DNA of 40,351 nt from Ruminobacter sp. GTDB lineage: Bacteria; Pseudomonadota; Gammaproteobacteria; Enterobacterales; Succinivibrionaceae. Under the pieces are notes generated by a model that searched no databases, was not told the origin of the DNA, and saw only the letters and a list, made by a program, of their open reading frames with translations. Positions 31,179 to 39,669 of the stretch are shown piece after piece. Every line of letters starts with the position of its first letter. Position 1 is the stretch's first letter. The stretch covers positions 1 to 40,351 of the forward strand of contig JAGAYS010000010.1 in the NCBI GenBank assembly GCA_017940385.1, read 5' to 3'. A program made the position numbers and the translations under genes.

Positions 31179-32627
31179 ATGTTTTTCAGATTTTTATCAA
31201 TGCAAGTTGAAATAAATAATCGTTCCCTTTTTATAATTCTGCCGATACTCTTCTGCACTGTGGCTCAGCTCACCGGTGTCGGTTTTCTTCTGCCTGACGG
31301 AAACGGTCATTTTCTCACTGCGGCAGTTCCGTGCCTTTTTGCCCTCGGACTTGCGCTGGTTATCCCGTCAAGCAACCGTTCATGGCTTGTAATCGGTACG
31401 TGTGCCTCCTTTTTTCTGATATACAAACTGCTGCATCTGCTTCAGCCCGATTATGCCTACTCATCACTTGTGGCGGCATTTCTGGGACCGCTGACCACGG
31501 CGCTCCTGCATCCGCACAGCCATAAAAAAATCACGCTGACTGCAAAAATACTCAACAGAACAATCACCTTCATCATACTGATGATACTTAGCTGCGTTCT
31601 GTGCTTTCTGTCGTCCTCACTGTATGAGAACATTCAGACATCCATAAACAACCTGTACATGAGTCACATCTATAACGACAGTTACTCATTCATATACGGG
31701 ATTATCTATCAGTTCTGCGAAACGTTCGGGTTCGGTAACTTCATTCTGGAAATCAGACACCTTATCGTGGATACCGGCGTGTCTCAGAGTTTCTACAGCA
31801 CCACGACGGCCATTTTCACCACCGGTCTTCCGGGAATTTTCCTGGCGCTTACCGTGGCACAGAACAAGCGAAAGAAGCTCCATTACCTGATTCTTACGCT
31901 GCTGGCGGTGGCAAGTTCCACCACCGGCTACAGCATCAGCATGCTTCTCATCTGTCTGCTGTGGATGCAGCCGTCCCTTTTCGGGCTGTACCTCATCAAC
32001 TGCGTTTTCTATTACATCATCGGCTACCAGATAGCCTTTGAGCCGCAGAACATAAGCAGGGCTTTCTATAACCCTAATCTCGATCTCGGACAGATAAACC
32101 TCGGAGACATGAAATTCATTCTGTACGCCCTGTTTATCTTCCTGTGCAACTTCATGACCTCAACGGCAGTGCTTAAGGAAAAGCAGCGCTATACCCAGAA
32201 TACCGGTCAGATTATCCGCGTAAAACCGCTCATCATTGACATACTGTCCGATCTGGGTACACAGGACTACAGTCTGAAATCAATTACCATACTCAAGGCA
32301 CTCGGCGGTTTTGACAACATCATTCATGCCACCAGACACGATGCCACGATTACTTTTACGGTACGGGATCTTTATGTCATAGACATGGACACGCTTAACA
32401 GCAACGGTTCCGCAACCAGGTACACGGACGGTCTCAACAAGTGTGTCTCATACACCATGCGTGACAATACCAATGACATCTACGACAACATATTAAGCAT
32501 TGCCACGCACAATCTGACCGACATTACCAGCGAATACCACATGATTGAACCGTACTCAATTGAAAGAAGCAGATTCAAGAATCTGTATACCTGTAAGGAA
32601 GAAATAAATGCCATGGATTCAAATTAA
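31179..32627 (+). CDS. Degenerate PTS EIICB-like membrane protein
   Basis: 482 residues. The N-terminal about 350 residues are hydrophobic with some 9-10 membrane segments and resemble the EIIC domain of glucose/GlcNAc-type phosphotransferase permeases ([13 protein letters not shown] near the start, [20 protein letters not shown] in the position of the EIIC GLPA..A segment). The conserved TGITEPIEF motif is only TTGYSISML, so the sugar-binding Glu is missing. Residues about 370-440 look like EIIB ([10 protein letters not shown]...TFTVRD), but the phospho-Cys position holds His387. It is probably not an active transporter and may be a sensor or regulator. The start is uncertain: ATG at 31179 or 31200, both with weak ribosome sites. 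The end overlaps prmA by 20 bases, which suggests coupling. Confidence 0.7.
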
Positions 32628-33483
32628 ACTGGGAACTACCGATAAGAAGGCGGAAAAAATCGCCGGTATGTTATCCGGTTTCGGAGCTGCGAGCGTTACC
32701 TATATGGATACCATAGATAATCCAGTATACGAGCCTCTTCCGGGAGAAACCAAGCTGTGGACAAACACCACCGTAATCGGCCTTTTTGACGCCGATACGG
32801 ATACCCGTCGCATTATCGACTTTTTCTACGAACACTTCGGGGACAAGATAACCTACAAGGTTGAACAGCTTGAAGACAAGGACTGGGTACGTGAGTGGAT
32901 GGATAACTTCCATCCGATTAAATGCGGTGAACGTCTGTGGATCTGCCCGAGCTGGTGCGATATTCCGGATCCTTCCGCTGTCAACGTCATGCTTGATCCG
33001 GGACTGGCATTCGGTACCGGTACCCACCCTACCACCTTCCTGTGCCTGTCATGGCTCGACAGTCTGGATCTTAACGGCAGAAACATCATCGACTTCGGCT
33101 GCGGTTCGGGAATTCTGGCAGTGAGCGCCCTTAAGCTCGGTGCCGCCTGCGCCACCGGCATAGACATAGATCCTCAGGCAATCGAAGCCAGCACCGAAAA
33201 CGCCTCAAGAAACGGCGTAAGCGACAGACTTAAGCTGTACCTGCCTCAGGAACAGCCTGAAAATCTGAAGGCTGATTTTCTGGTAGCCAACATTCTTGCC
33301 GGCCCGTTAAGAGAACTTGCCCCTGCCATAGCGTCAATGGTAAATCCTGGCGGTCTGTTTGCCATCAGCGGCATTATTGAAAACCAGTGTCAGGAACTGA
33401 TGGAGATCTACAGTCAGTGGTTTGATCTTGACGAACCGGTATTTAAGGATGAATGGTGCCGCATCACCGGCAGAAAAAAATAA
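32608..33483 (+). CDS. prmA: Ribosomal protein L11 methyltransferase
   Basis: 291 residues (E. coli 293). It trimethylates several amino groups of L11 with S-adenosylmethionine. The N-terminal substrate-binding domain starts [16 protein letters not shown], and [20 protein letters not shown] follows the linker. The methyltransferase core has [25 protein letters not shown] (SAM-binding) and NILAGPL (catalytic region). The start has AAGGAAG 6 bases upstream and lies inside the end of the EIICB-like gene. fis follows, but dusB, usually between prmA and fis, is missing. Confidence 0.97.
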
Positions 33484-33674: not shown

Positions 33675-33971
33675 ATGTTAAATATCAATAATAAAATGAA
33701 TCCTCAGAGAACCATGACTTCAGAAGAAGTTCAGGCTGTACCACAGAAACCTTTATATGAATCAGTTTTAACTTCAGTGAACAACTTCCTTAACAATCCT
33801 GCCAATGCAGACACCACTGACCTTTATGAAATCGTGTTAAGTGAAGTTGAACGTCCGCTTCTTGACAGAGTGATGCAGTTCGTTCACGGCAATCAGACCA
33901 AGGCTGCAAAGATGATGGGCATCAACCGCGGTACCCTTCGCAAGAAGCTCAAGAAGTACAGCTTAAGCTAA
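33675..33971 (+). CDS. fis: Nucleoid protein and regulator Fis
   Basis: 98 residues, same length as E. coli Fis. It bends DNA, activates rRNA and tRNA promoters and stimulates site-specific inversion. The C-terminal helix-turn-helix is essentially identical to E. coli ([20 protein letters not shown]), preceded by [16 protein letters not shown]. The N-terminal arm is less alike, as is usual outside enterics. It has its own 190-base AT-rich upstream region with a leader hairpin, is not preceded by dusB, and is followed by a very strong terminator. Confidence 0.97.
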
Positions 33972-33996: not shown

Positions 33997-34043
33997 AGGA
34001 AGACCCGTTATCGCGGAGACGATAACGGGTCTTCCTTTCTTTT
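33997..34043 (+). terminator. fis terminator
   Basis: A 17-bp perfect stem, 33997-34013 with 34020-34036 (core GACCCGTTATC), with a 6-base loop, followed by TTCTTTT. Confidence 0.95.
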
Positions 34044-34120: not shown

Positions 34121-34126
34121 TATAAT
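34121..34126 (+). promoter_or_regulatory. -10 element of the ATPase-helicase pair
   Basis: A perfect TATAAT 40 bases before the ATPase start. The -35 at 17 bases upstream (ATGCAG) is poor. CAGGC (34083-34087) and GCCTG (34113-34117) form an interrupted inverted repeat around the -35 region, which might be an operator. Confidence 0.5.
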
Positions 34127-34165: not shown

Positions 34166-35515
34166 ATGGCAGTAAAACTGAGACCTCGCGAAAGAGAATC
34201 CATTATTCAGTCATTACGTTCAGGCGTAACTCCCCGTACCGGCCTGCAGTTCATTCAGGTAGGCAGAGTCAAAGAAATTGAATCAATGATTCATGATCTG
34301 GATCTGGTTGCCAACGAAGGCAGCACATTCAAACTCGTTATCGGCGACTTCGGTGCCGGTAAAAGCTTCTTTCTTCAGCTCGTACGCAGTATTGCTCATG
34401 AAAAAGGCCTGGTGACCATGAATGCCGATCTGTCTCCCGACAGACGTCTCCAGTCGTCCAAAGGTCAGGCTCTCAATCTCTATCAGGAATTAAGCAGAAA
34501 CATGTCAACCAGAGCCAAGCCTGACGGCAACGCCCTTAATTCCGTCGTTGAAAAATTCATAACCCTGGCCAGAACCAGGGCTGAGGAAACCGGCACGGAA
34601 TGTACCGAGGTCATCAAAAAACTTTTAAAACCTCTTAACGACATGGTCGGCGGTTTTGACTTTACGCTGGTAATCATGTCCTACTGGAAAGGCTTCAATG
34701 AAGGAAGCAACTACCTCATCGACTGCGCCAACAAATGGCTCCGCGGTGAATACCACAGCCGTCTTGAAGCCCGTCAGGATCTCGGAGTAAGAACCATAAT
34801 TGATGATTCCTCCGTTTATGATTTCTACAAATTATTAAGCACCTTTGTTCAGATTGCCGGATACCGCGGACTGCTCATTCTTATGGATGAGATGGTAAAC
34901 CTCTATAAAATCCACAACCTCCGTTCCCGTGAAGCCAATTACGAACAGATTCTGCGCATCATCAACGACTGTCTGCAGGGTAACGTACGCGGCCTCGGTT
35001 TTGTCATGGGCGGAACCGTGGACTTTCTCGAAGACCCGCGCAAGGGACTATACAGTTACGAGGCACTGCATTCAAGACTTGCCGCTAACGTATTTGCCAA
35101 GGCTGCCGGAGTCAATGATCTCAGCGGTCCGGTAATGAGACTGAACAATCTAACCCCGGAAGAGCTCTATGTTCTTCTGCACAACATCCGCAACATCTTT
35201 GCCTACTACAACGAAGACAGCTATCTGGTGCCTGACGAGGCCCTGTCAAAATTCCTGAGCCACTGTTCTTCCCGTATCGGCGAAGCTTATTTCAAAACTC
35301 CAAGAAACACCATAAAGGCATTTGTGGATCTGCTGTCCATTCTGGAACAGAATCCGGAACTCAAATGGGCTGATCTTCTGAAGGACATTAACATTAACCG
35401 CGAAGAGGAAGACACGTTTCTGAGTTTCGATGATGATGCGGGCTCCGCTGACGGCAGTACCGACGGCGGCGTTTCCGGTAACGATGAAGACGAACTGGTA
35501 AGTTTCAAACTCTGA
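34166..35515 (+). CDS. P-loop ATPase, DUF2791/BrxD-like
   Basis: 449 residues. Walker A is GDFGAGKS (60-67) and Walker B LLILMDE (about 236-242). The N-terminus has LRSGVTP, TGLQFIQVGR and the FKLVIGDFGAGKSFFL core typical of the DUF2791 (BREX BrxD-like) family, and the region after Walker B (NDCLQGNVRGLGFVMGGTVDFLED) also matches. The last 35 residues form an acidic Asp/Gly-rich tail. Known relatives work next to an Lhr-like helicase in BREX type 2, in Shango-type (TerB-ATPase-helicase) and related loci; here the helicase is next, 81 bases away. The start at 34166 has AGGA 10 bases upstream. GC and codon use look like the neighbours, so there is no sign of recent transfer. Confidence 0.85.
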   Translation: MAVKLRPRERESIIQSLRSGVTPRTGLQFIQVGRVKEIESMIHDLDLVANEGSTFKLVIGDFGAGKSFFLQLVRSIAHEKGLVTMNADLSPDRRLQSSKGQALNLYQELSRNMSTRAKPDGNALNSVVEKFITLARTRAEETGTECTEVIKKLLKPLNDMVGGFDFTLVIMSYWKGFNEGSNYLIDCANKWLRGEYHSRLEARQDLGVRTIIDDSSVYDFYKLLSTFVQIAGYRGLLILMDEMVNLYKIHNLRSREANYEQILRIINDCLQGNVRGLGFVMGGTVDFLEDPRKGLYSYEALHSRLAANVFAKAAGVNDLSGPVMRLNNLTPEELYVLLHNIRNIFAYYNEDSYLVPDEALSKFLSHCSSRIGEAYFKTPRNTIKAFVDLLSILEQNPELKWADLLKDININREEEDTFLSFDDDAGSADGSTDGGVSGNDEDELVSFKL

Positions 35516-35596
35516 TAACACAAAGGGAAGCGGTTGCCGTCTCCGACGGTGACGCCTTCCCCTCTCACAAATGAAACGGCAAAGGGCATTGACGTT

Positions 35597-37870
35597 ATGA
35601 CTCAGAAATCAAATTCAGAGATGCTTCACCCCCTCATAATAAGGTATCTGCATCATCTGGGATGGAAACAGCTTAATGAAATACAGGAACAGTCCATTCC
35701 GCTGATTCTTGAAAACAAATCTGACGTGATCATCAGCGCGGCCACGGCAAGCGGCAAAACGGAAGCCGCCTTTCTGCCGGTATGCACCTCTATTCTCAAC
35801 GACAGTCCTTCCGGAATAGCCGCCATATACATCAGTCCGCTGAAGGCCCTTATCAACGACCAATTTAAACGCATAGAGGCCATGGGTGATTTTGTGGGCA
35901 TCAAGGTAACCCCGTGGCACGGAGACATAAACACCCACGTTAAGGCCAAAACCATTCAGGAACCGTCAGGCATTCTGCTCATAACGCCTGAATCACTTGA
36001 ATCCCTGCTGATAAACTACTCCACATGGTACCGTAAATATCTTAAGGATTTAAGATACATCATCATTGATGAGTTTCATGCCTTCATCGGTGTGGAGAGA
36101 GGTTATCAGCTGCTGAGTCAGATGCACAGACTTGAGGTGGTCCTTAAAAAACGAATAACCCGCATAGCACTGAGCGCCACCCTGAACGACATTGAATCAG
36201 CCGGCCGCTGGCTGCGTTCAGCCCCGAACTCCAGACCGCACATAGTTGAAAGCGGAACAGGCAATAAAAAGCTTCTTCTGCAGCTGCGCGGCTACGATCG
36301 CATGACTGACGCTTCGGACCGCGGGGGCTCCGGCAGGCCTTTCCGCTACGATGCCGTAGCCGCCGACCTTTTCAGGCTGCTCCGCGGAACCACAAATCTG
36401 ATTTTTGCAAACAGTCGCGGAAAGACCGAATATCTGGCAACAATCATGGACAGGATATCCACGGACAACAATCTGCCCGTTGAATTCTTCCCTCACCACA
36501 GTTCACTGTCCAAAGATCTGAGGGAAAGACTTGAAAACCGCCTTAAATCCGCGAACCTGCCAACCACGGCAATATGCACCCAGACACTGGAACTGGGCAT
36601 TGACATAGGTGACGTGGTTTCGATAGCGCAGGTTGATGCCCCGTCTTCAGTTGCGGGACTCAGACAGAGAATCGGACGTTCCGGACGAAGGGACAGAGCC
36701 GCGGTGCTGCGTCTTTTCATAAGCGAACTCAGCCCGTATACAGACACCTCTCACACGCTTGAAACCAGACTGAGGGATGAAACATTTCTGTCAACGGCCC
36801 TGCTGGAACTCATGCTTAACAACTGGTATGAACCGCCGGCAACACACGAATACGCCATGTCAACGCTGATTCAGCAGATTCTGAGCGTAATCTCCGAAAC
36901 CGGAAGCATCAAGGCACTCAGCCTGTGGAAGCTGCTGTGCCAGACCGGACCGTTCTCACTGATCACCCCGAAGATATTTGCCCTGATCCTGAAATCTCTC
37001 GGTGAAAACGACCTCATTACCCAGATGCGGGACGGAAACCTTATTCTTGGTCTTACCGGTGAGAAGGTTGTTTCAAAGTTCAGCTTCTACAGTTCATTTA
37101 AGGTTCAGGAAGAATATACCATCGATTTTAACGGCTCCAACATAGGCACAGTTCCCCTGAATCAGCCTTTAAGTCTCGGGGATTCATTCCTTTTTGCCGG
37201 AAAAGGCTGGCAGGTTATCTTCTTCAACAGTGAAAAACGGCAGATATCGGTCAAGCCTTATAAGGACAAGGCCAACCCGATAGTAATGGACGGCAGGCCG
37301 AGCAGGATACATGACGGCATACGTGAAAAGATGTATGAACTGTACTGCGGTAACGGCATTCCTGCCTATCTCAACAAAACGGCAGCCAGACATTTTCTCG
37401 AAGGCAGGGAACTGTTCAGGGAACTGGGGCTTAAAGACAATAAATACATAATGGGGATGGACGGACTTTACATCTTCCCGTGGAAGGGAGATAAAATCAT
37501 GAACACCATAGTGCAGATCCTTAAGCACTACAGAATTCAGGCCAAAAAGATCAGCAGCTACATTCTGCTCCCAGGACTGTCAACCATTACTTACAAACAG
37601 GTGGTCAAAACCATACTGGAGTCCCCAAGACTCAGCGAGGAAGAGCTTGCTGCCAAAATCAGCAACCTGGAATACGACAAGTATGACAAATACCTCAGCA
37701 AGGATCTTAAGTGTCTGCAGTACGGCTACCGTAACTTTGACATAGACGGGGCAATGAGTTTCTTCGAAAGTGCCCTTACGTCCAAAACTCCGTTTAATCC
37801 GGCAAATAACGCCGCCTACAATATCTGCAGTGACACGTCACAATCCTTTGAACACCTGACCACGGCGTGA
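35597..37870 (+). CDS. Lhr/BrxHI-like superfamily 2 helicase
   Basis: 757 residues from the chosen start. The helicase core has the Q motif (LNEIQEQSIP), motif I ATASGKT (49-55), Ib TPESLE, motif II DEFH (158-161), III SAT (193-195), V TLELGIDIGDV and VI QRIGRSGRRD (about 357-366). The remaining 390 residues resemble the Lhr-type winged-helix and C-terminal region. Cysteine clusters of DUF1998 are not seen. It is the usual partner of DUF2791 ATPases. The start is taken at ATG 35597 (AAAGGG upstream); a TTG at 35534 is in frame and would add 21 low-complexity residues. It is co-transcribed with the ATPase and followed by a strong terminator. Confidence 0.87.
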   Translation: MTQKSNSEMLHPLIIRYLHHLGWKQLNEIQEQSIPLILENKSDVIISAATASGKTEAAFLPVCTSILNDSPSGIAAIYISPLKALINDQFKRIEAMGDFVGIKVTPWHGDINTHVKAKTIQEPSGILLITPESLESLLINYSTWYRKYLKDLRYIIIDEFHAFIGVERGYQLLSQMHRLEVVLKKRITRIALSATLNDIESAGRWLRSAPNSRPHIVESGTGNKKLLLQLRGYDRMTDASDRGGSGRPFRYDAVAADLFRLLRGTTNLIFANSRGKTEYLATIMDRISTDNNLPVEFFPHHSSLSKDLRERLENRLKSANLPTTAICTQTLELGIDIGDVVSIAQVDAPSSVAGLRQRIGRSGRRDRAAVLRLFISELSPYTDTSHTLETRLRDETFLSTALLELMLNNWYEPPATHEYAMSTLIQQILSVISETGSIKALSLWKLLCQTGPFSLITPKIFALILKSLGENDLITQMRDGNLILGLTGEKVVSKFSFYSSFKVQEEYTIDFNGSNIGTVPLNQPLSLGDSFLFAGKGWQVIFFNSEKRQISVKPYKDKANPIVMDGRPSRIHDGIREKMYELYCGNGIPAYLNKTAARHFLEGRELFRELGLKDNKYIMGMDGLYIFPWKGDKIMNTIVQILKHYRIQAKKISSYILLPGLSTITYKQVVKTILESPRLSEEELAAKISNLEYDKYDKYLSKDLKCLQYGYRNFDIDGAMSFFESALTSKTPFNPANNAAYNICSDTSQSFEHLTTA

Positions 37871-37940: not shown

Positions 37941-37982
37941 TAAAGGACAAAAGTCCTCACGACTTTTGTCCTTTATTCTTTC
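37941..37982. terminator. Terminator between helicase and pgpA
   Basis: TAAAGGACAAAAGTC (37941-37955) and GACTTTTGTCCTTTA (37961-37975) form a 15-bp stem with a 5-base loop, then TTCTTTCC. The minus side also continues with TTTATG, so it may serve pgpA as well. Confidence 0.88.
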
Positions 37983-38681: not shown

Positions 38682-39611
38682 TTACATATTCAACAGAACA
38701 AATATCTCATTCTTGTTCTTAAGCACAATCTGATTATTATCGGCTTCATTGTCATCAGGGCTCAGACGAAGTGTTCTTAAAGTATAGAACAGCAGGGCCT
38801 GACGGCACTTGTACACAACCTCACCGTTTTCCATACCGTAGTCGAGCTCAATTGCCTTTCTCTGACTTTCTGAAAGATTAGGATTAGGAATGATATGGAG
38901 AGATACCACAAAATTCCATCTCATGTCTTCATTAGGGTCTATGTTGGAAACATCAATCTTGCCTACTGAAAGAATACGGGAAAGAACGAAGTCCCTGAAA
39001 TCATGCTTCTCATGACAATATGCGCGGACATGCCATCTTATACCGTCAAAACCGAGTGCGTGAGGTGAAATGATTCTGCTTGCAGGATCGATTCTGCTCA
39101 TTGACTGGTACGTGATGCGGAGAGAGCATTTATTTAAAATACAGTAAACGATGGTTGAAAGGATTTCAAAATCAACACTGCGCTTTGGCGGTACAAAGCA
39201 GGCGACGTTAGGAGTCTGAAGCAGGTAGTTACTGGTATCATGAATAATGCCCTGAGCATTCATATACAGGTCATTAAGATATGATGTAGCACTGCAGATA
39301 GAATATAAAGGTCTGTACTTTGCAGTCTTTACGTAAACCTTCTGATGCCGGTCATACTCAAGATTATGAGGGGCCATTTCAGTATACTTGGCAAGGTCCA
39401 GAGAAGACTGAGGAATTGAGATGCCGAAAAATTCAACCAGGTCAGATCTGTTTATGTGGCCACTCCAGCATAAACGGTAATCAATGAATTCCAATCGGCG
39501 TTCCTGATTCCATTTATTGTTTCCCGGCTTAGCAATTGGGGGCTTCTTCAGAGCTGCTGTCAGCCCCTTGGAAGCTCGGGCAGATCTGCCATTAGCATTA
39601 ACTGTGTTCAT
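38682..39611 (-). CDS. WYL-domain transcription regulator, BrxR/CapW-like
   Basis: 309 residues. After a basic, disordered N-terminus (1-35) comes a winged helix-turn-helix (about 36-95; EFIDYRLCWSGHINRSDL, FGISIPQSSLDL). A WYL domain follows at about 150-225 (LRITYQSMS, ISPHALGFDGIRWHVRAYC, FRDFVLSRI), then a C-terminal extension (WCX-like). This layout and the motifs match the BrxR/CapW regulators that repress BREX, CBASS and other defence loci and respond to a ligand in the WYL pocket. The start is taken at ATG 39611 (GGAAAATACT upstream); a GTG seven codons earlier is also in frame. Repeats just upstream may be its operator. Which genes it controls is unknown; the ATPase-helicase pair is 0.8 kb beyond its 3' end. 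Confidence 0.88.
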   Translation of the reverse strand: MNTVNANGRSARASKGLTAALKKPPIAKPGNNKWNQERRLEFIDYRLCWSGHINRSDLVEFFGISIPQSSLDLAKYTEMAPHNLEYDRHQKVYVKTAKYRPLYSICSATSYLNDLYMNAQGIIHDTSNYLLQTPNVACFVPPKRSVDFEILSTIVYCILNKCSLRITYQSMSRIDPASRIISPHALGFDGIRWHVRAYCHEKHDFRDFVLSRILSVGKIDVSNIDPNEDMRWNFVVSLHIIPNPNLSESQRKAIELDYGMENGEVVYKCRQALLFYTLRTLRLSPDDNEADNNQIVLKNKNEIFVLLNM

Positions 39612-39631
39612 AGTATTTTCCGTTATATTCA

Positions 39632-39669
39632 CTGAGCGTAATTAATGGCTACCTGAGTAGCGTAATTAA
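39632..39669. repeat. Direct and inverted repeats upstream of the WYL regulator
   Basis: GCGTAATTAA occurs at 39636-39645 and 39660-39669 (24 bases apart), each preceded by CTGAG. Between them GCTAC-CTGA-GTAGC (39648-39661) is a perfect inverted repeat. The cluster ends about 20 bases from the start codon, the position expected for an autoregulatory operator. Confidence 0.6.

Follow-up and report, generated by a model that had tools for sequence, protein, structure and literature searches.

A probable split and rebuilt Shango system in the core genome of the Succinivibrionaceae

Why should a pair of genes resembling parts of anti-phage systems stand alone among core genes of a bacterium whose family inhabits rumen and gut? 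The question is raised by a stretch of 40,351 nucleotides (hereafter the window; contig JAGAYS010000010.1) from a member of the genus Ruminobacter, family Succinivibrionaceae, in which a sequence-only reading had noted a P-loop ATPase followed by a superfamily 2 (SF2) helicase, had named the ATPase BrxD-like, and had suggested that the pair may be a minimal defence or genome-maintenance system, or else a domesticated remnant. Both open reading frames are where that reading had placed them (Table 1). Our analysis indicates that they are sngB and sngC of the Shango system, that a candidate for the third component, SngA, is encoded elsewhere in the same genome, and that this split and rebuilt Shango has probably become fixed in the core genome of one family with its anti-phage function retained.

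On sequence comparison the pair is SngB/SngC rather than BrxD/BrxHI. PADLOC matches SngB to residues 3-428 of the first protein (8.2e-166) and SngC to residues 8-724 of the second (2e-227), in both cases well ahead of BrxD and BrxHI respectively, while Pfam finds BrxC_BrxD in the first (3.3e-143) and DEAD and Helicase_C in the second; the ATPase and helicase families recognized earlier thus stand far beyond chance. The name BrxD holds for the superfamily and not for the protein, since the NCBIfam BrxD equivalog reaches only 152.6 bits against a cut-off of 350. The NCBIfam equivalogs for Lhr and for ligase-associated DEXH helicases likewise stay far under their cut-offs on SngC (205 of 850 bits). 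A structure model of SngC (mean predicted local distance difference test score 83.4) has as its best fold match the Mycobacterium Lhr structure 5v9x (expectation value, E, 3.6e-29; template modelling score 0.70 on the query), followed by MrfA and Hel308-type helicases; among solved structures SngB has no relative at E 0.01 and SngA no credible one. The Walker A (GDFGAGKS) and Walker B (LLILMDE) motifs of SngB and the DEFH and QRIGRSGRR motifs of SngC are present, and fall mostly at columns that are invariant in alignments of 14 SngB and 13 SngC relatives. SngB proteins close with an acidic linker and a tail ending F-x-L, whose F and L are invariant in the 14 sequences (window 35501-35512, forward strand), a possible docking motif.

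Where, then, is SngA? Shango is described in PMC10250203 as SngA-SngB-SngC, giving Pseudomonas aeruginosa modest protection against several phages. PADLOC finds no SngA, PglZ or PglX among the 15 window proteins between 20732 and 39632, nor PglW, the further protein of bacteriophage exclusion (BREX) type 2 that was looked for together with PglX and PglZ in these 15 proteins, the rest of the genome not having been searched for the BREX set. The earlier statement that the pair lacks its usual partners therefore holds for the window proteins scanned. For the genome it does not: beside its one SngB copy the genome has one SngA-profile match, on contig 68 rather than on the contig of the window. 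The candidate has about 1,097 residues from a TTG start, although comparison with R. amylophilus makes an ATG a few residues downstream the likelier start, and it carries TerB_C at its C-terminus (Pfam 1.8e-19; PADLOC SngA 1.7e-22 over the last quarter). Displaced partners were among the outcomes that the sequence-only reading had named as refuting its view, and this is a form of that outcome, with the candidate partner remote and rebuilt rather than nearby.

How far it has been rebuilt can be seen across the family, where SngA ranges from about 1,070 to 2,200 residues with TerB_C kept at the C-terminus. Proteins of the two family subclades align end to end (989 columns, E 4.8e-33) and so form one lineage, but with canonical SngA they have only TerB_C in common (about 120 aligned columns, E 3.2e-18). 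A hidden TerB or TerB_N was looked for and not detected: profile comparison gave no second match above chance and Pfam at E up to 1 returned only TerB_C and one unrelated match below its cut-off. A profile of the N-terminal 320 residues matches in none of 368 other genomes of the class. The family is not alone in having TerB_C with neither TerB_N nor TerB, as the SngA of one outside locus (L140) is likewise by Pfam. All nine SngA-like proteins tested from directly upstream of sngB (from seven of the 14 named loci outside the family and from two genomes of the order; five scanned by Pfam) match SngA by PADLOC and keep the TerB_C part, down to a length of 182 residues. Two Bacteroidales loci (L141, L143) have SngA-like genes of just 228 and 182 residues that correspond to the TerB_C end of the SngA profile and overlap sngB, a minimal form of Shango.

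How general is the split arrangement? With one genome searched per species, profile searches find sngB in 48 of 56 family genomes and sngC in 49, spanning 12 genera, while sngA is found in 43 by the PADLOC profile and in three more by a profile built on the family SngA (G019, G022, G028; partial matches, two of them near a contig end), giving 46 of the 49 genomes with sngC. One genome (G009) has sngA and sngC, the latter about 200 bases from a contig start. All three genes are absent in the same seven genomes, which make up the genera g12 and g13 of our sample, and 42 of the 43 genomes with any SngA-profile match have exactly one. Given this remote TerB_C protein, in the genome of the window and throughout nearly all pair-bearing species, a minimal system of two genes is probably not what the locus represents. 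The loci closest to the window in a scan of genome contigs are from Ruminobacter (SngB 97 and 92% identical), followed by other Succinivibrionaceae. Outside the family Shango is rare in the class: in an order sample SngB occurs in 22 of 295 genomes, namely 20 of 23 listed family genomes and two of 272 others (on the assumption that the 23 listed rows are all the family members and that none is among the 253 negatives given without names), and in a class sample in 7 of 369, or 6 of 368 without the genome of the window. One family genome (G055) has a second, divergent SngB (L174, 8584-9909), 45% identical, on a very long tree branch and with no sngA or sngC nearby; it was excluded from the family counts.

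Outside the family the three genes stand together, with SngA directly upstream of sngB in eight of eight genomes (two of the order, six of six of the class) and in seven of eight IMG/VR contigs, the eighth being cut at its end. In the family, none of 50 sngB/sngC stretches (3.9 to 40 kb; tblastn at 1e-3) holds an SngA-like frame. Profiles find both halves in 42 family genomes. In 40 of these the halves are on separate contigs, which in draft assemblies proves little on its own, and in the other two they share a contig at distances of 0.93 and 1.41 Mb.

Each half has a characteristic site. For sngBC this is behind prmA: 37 of 49 stretches have that gene upstream in the same orientation, 24 of them within 1 kb (labels being best BLAST hits). 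Of the remaining 12, seven have under 4 kb of upstream sequence, while the five with more show a clear move or rearrangement. The pair thus recurs in a core neighbourhood, as had been guessed, although fis adjoins it in some genera only and prmA is the steadier neighbour. In genus g2 a protein of 763-1,152 residues with weak methyltransferase similarity lies between prmA and sngB (for example L087, 9558-11882, reverse strand). For sngA the site is near xseA, with both genes on the same stretch in 27 of 40 stretches (drawn from the 43 genomes that the profile matches). Of the 13 without xseA, nine come from one part of g11 and have a permease gene beside sngA, eight of these nine a glycosidase gene as well, and one genome (G032) has both arrangements. 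In the sister genera g12 and g13, prmA was matched in six of seven genomes queried (nine were queried in all) with no sngBC there, and no sngA was found in five xseA stretches. In three of the six prmA stretches an open reading frame of 1,737-1,825 residues then follows; the one tested, in g12 (L167, 366-5576, reverse strand), encodes a PDC-S37/Hhe-like defence protein of DUF4011, helicase and nuclease parts that takes the place of sngBC behind prmA-fis. Because such a gene occupies the site where sngBC is absent, the prmA-fis site may be a family-level defence spot.

The history of the genes was followed in trees. RecJ and XseA together gave a tree for 28 genomes (10 that have Shango and represent 8 of the 12 genera, 6 that lack it, and 12 as outgroup), in which g13 and then g12 branch below the rest with moderate support (81/88 and 82/87). 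The 29 family SngB proteins, from all 12 genera, form one clade (Shimodaira-Hasegawa-like approximate likelihood ratio test 97), whose deepest split, g1, g7, g10 and g14 against the others, agrees with the two-gene species tree. The ratio of nonsynonymous to synonymous rates (dN/dS) over four within-genus pairs is 0.036-0.067 for sngB, compared with 0.036-0.042 for prmA and 0.033-0.093 for recJ; it is 0.095-0.165 for sngA (three pairs), 0.120 and 0.163 for xseA (two pairs) and 0.051 for sngC in its sole unsaturated pair, most dS values being saturated and only one pair (G000-G024) unsaturated throughout. The genes compared are constrained and under purifying selection, and SngA is no exception.

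We propose, then, a single acquisition of Shango in an ancestor of the 12 genera, whose lineages would have kept it by descent. SngA would have left the operon for a second site in the core chromosome, near xseA, and would have been rebuilt to its present length. By analogy with BrxD, which PMC12839542 proposes as a loader of BrxHI, SngB may load or switch SngC, an Lhr-like translocase on single-stranded DNA, on foreign or damaged replicating DNA; SngA may use TerB_C to dock to SngBC, and the long N-terminal part peculiar to its lineage may sense or carry out the response. The two halves would thus work together, and against phages, in a function that remains anti-phage but is now encoded in the core genome. 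According to PMC12278908, SngC belongs to a clade of defence helicases that also contains BrxHI, DruE and DpdJ.

A number of points weigh against this proposal. The suggested partnership of SngA with SngBC draws on co-occurrence, and that co-occurrence lies within one clade, so that it is one evolutionary event and not 46 independent ones. In three genomes, 69-89% complete (G037, G038, G040), neither the PADLOC nor the family profile finds sngA. With TerB_N and TerB undetected, the family SngA could be a TerB_C protein that serves a different pathway. The low position of g12 and g13, besides being moderately supported, is based on 8 of 12 genera and on two genes, with a flag raised for uneven amino-acid composition; g11 does not form a single clade in the SngB tree, and several inner branches there are weak. 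The saturation of dS limits the selection estimates. An arms-race signal in SngA was looked for and dropped, its dN/dS being no higher than that of xseA. Finally, we found no anti-phage assay for any member of this family and, among open-licence papers, nothing on Shango in Succinivibrionaceae or Ruminobacter.

A wider statement, which we offer tentatively and with less than even confidence, is that an anti-phage system has turned into a core cellular machine: acquired once, divided between two sites, its TerB sensor part swapped for a module that the class sample shows nowhere else, and inherited vertically in 12 genera, either as a form of innate immunity that one family has fixed or as a complex for genome maintenance built from a defence system. 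A rival reading is one of domestication, in which the three proteins are no longer mainly anti-phage but form a housekeeping complex for single-stranded DNA and fork repair, where the ATPase would load the Lhr-like helicase at lesions in the chromosome. Lhr is a DNA-repair-associated helicase, and it is the best fold match of SngC; sngC is kept in 49 of 49 genomes across the 12 genera, incomplete ones included, with dN/dS like that of prmA and recJ, and both halves lie near genes for single-stranded DNA exonucleases (recJ and xseA). However, recJ is near prmA also in sister-genus stretches without sngBC, so that it was a neighbour before the pair arrived, one subclade has a CapW/BrxR homologue close by, and the same proteins are anti-phage elsewhere (PMC10250203). 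We consider this reading unlikely.

Less likely again is that we are dealing with two independent systems, a two-protein SngBC system and a TerB_C protein at work in another process. The genes are unlinked, the similarity to canonical SngA is confined to its 120 or so columns, and sngA is undetected in 3 of 49 species, all of which would fit; yet all three genes are missing from the same seven genomes, SngA-profile matches are single in 42 of 43 genomes, and TerB_C persists in nine of nine upstream SngA-like proteins, however short, as expected of a docking module. That the pair is a decaying remnant of a lost Shango operon, to which the absence of SngA from the operon might point, is scarcely credible in view of the intact frames and motifs, the low dN/dS and the family-wide retention.

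The features of the locus are collected in Table 1. We take sngC to start most likely at the ATG, since close relatives align only from residue 22 onward of the longest frame, which opens at the TTG. The stem of the terminator noted behind fis is there, and because a TATAAT box lies between it and sngB, sngBC is probably a transcript of its own; the box was not listed by a consensus scan, and a similar one is seen upstream of sngB in six further stretches inspected. At the distal end a symmetrical hairpin was seen by eye, where a terminator scan gives only a shorter stem on the opposite strand.

Table 1. Features of the sngBC locus, in window coordinates
Feature	Position	Strand	Description
prmA	32608..33483	+	Pfam PrmA 6.3e-100; conserved upstream neighbour marking the landing site
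fis	33675..33971	+	Pfam HTH_8 8.8e-14; between prmA and sngB in some genera only (synteny)
prmA-fis terminator	33997..34036	+	17-pair stem; sets prmA-fis apart from sngBC
TATAAT box, probable sngBC promoter	34121..34126 (approximate)	+	found by eye in the sequence
sngB	34166..35515	+	AAA+ ATPase, 449 residues, BrxC/BrxD superfamily
sngC	35594..37870	+	Lhr-like SF2 helicase, 758 residues from ATG 35594; TTG 35534 also possible
Hairpin with T-rich tail 3' of sngC, probable terminator	about 37944..37975	+	by eye
CapW/BrxR-like WYL-domain transcription factor	38682..39632	-	possible regulator; PDB matches CapW 7tb6, BrxR 7t8k

The neighbours had been described as core genes, a description that does not simply fit the WYL gene two genes downstream of sngC. 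Its product is similar over its full length to CapW (7tb6, E 7e-71, residues 39-309) and also matches BrxR (7t8k, E 1e-44), and the gene is present in seven of eight stretches of g1, g7, g10 and g14 but absent from all those fetched for the other subclade. It is possible that this protein regulates sngBC. A common CapW-type operator was sought and dropped: a 10-base direct repeat occurs twice upstream of the WYL gene, but neither sngB nor sngA has it upstream, and relatives do not conserve it. On the other side, a probable membrane protein of 482 residues (31179-32627, forward strand) lies beside prmA across the family, g12 included; it has no Pfam match above cut-off and a weak match to EIIB of the phosphotransferase system.

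Defence systems are usually patchy, mobile and compact, and detection tools depend on those traits. If a three-part system has been dispersed and fixed in a family as we propose, such tools would miss it, and core genomes may hide more. Moreover, the family would offer a natural dissection of Shango, in which SngBC and TerB_C are conserved and the rest of SngA is replaced, pointing to TerB_C as the coupling module. The cultured members Ruminobacter amylophilus DSM 1361 and Succinimonas amylolytica DSM 2873 make the choice between immunity and genome maintenance testable.

How does the family system compare with those already known? With Shango it shares SngB and SngC matched over their full length and a TerB_C protein in the same genome; it differs in that SngA lies outside the operon, so that the three-gene contiguity of Shango is lost in Succinivibrionaceae, and has about 900 other residues in place of a detectable TerB_N or TerB, and in that its genes are core and vertically kept where Shango is elsewhere sporadic or carried by mobile elements. 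A short, TerB_C-only SngA marks Shango-like loci of Bacteroidales, Clostridia and others; these resemble the family system in that TerB_C is, in some (L140), the sole part in common with canonical SngA, but in them the short gene sits immediately before sngB and overlaps it. The BrxD-BrxHI pair of BREX type 2, as PMC12839542 describes it, is similarly a BrxC/BrxD-family ATPase adjoining a helicase whose C-terminal part is Lhr-like, from which the pair in the window departs in its low BrxD score and in the lack of PglW, PglX and PglZ among the window proteins scanned. Lhr and the ligase-associated DEXH helicases, lastly, have the SF2 core and overall fold of SngC, whereas SngC falls far short of their score cut-offs and has an ATPase partner beside it.

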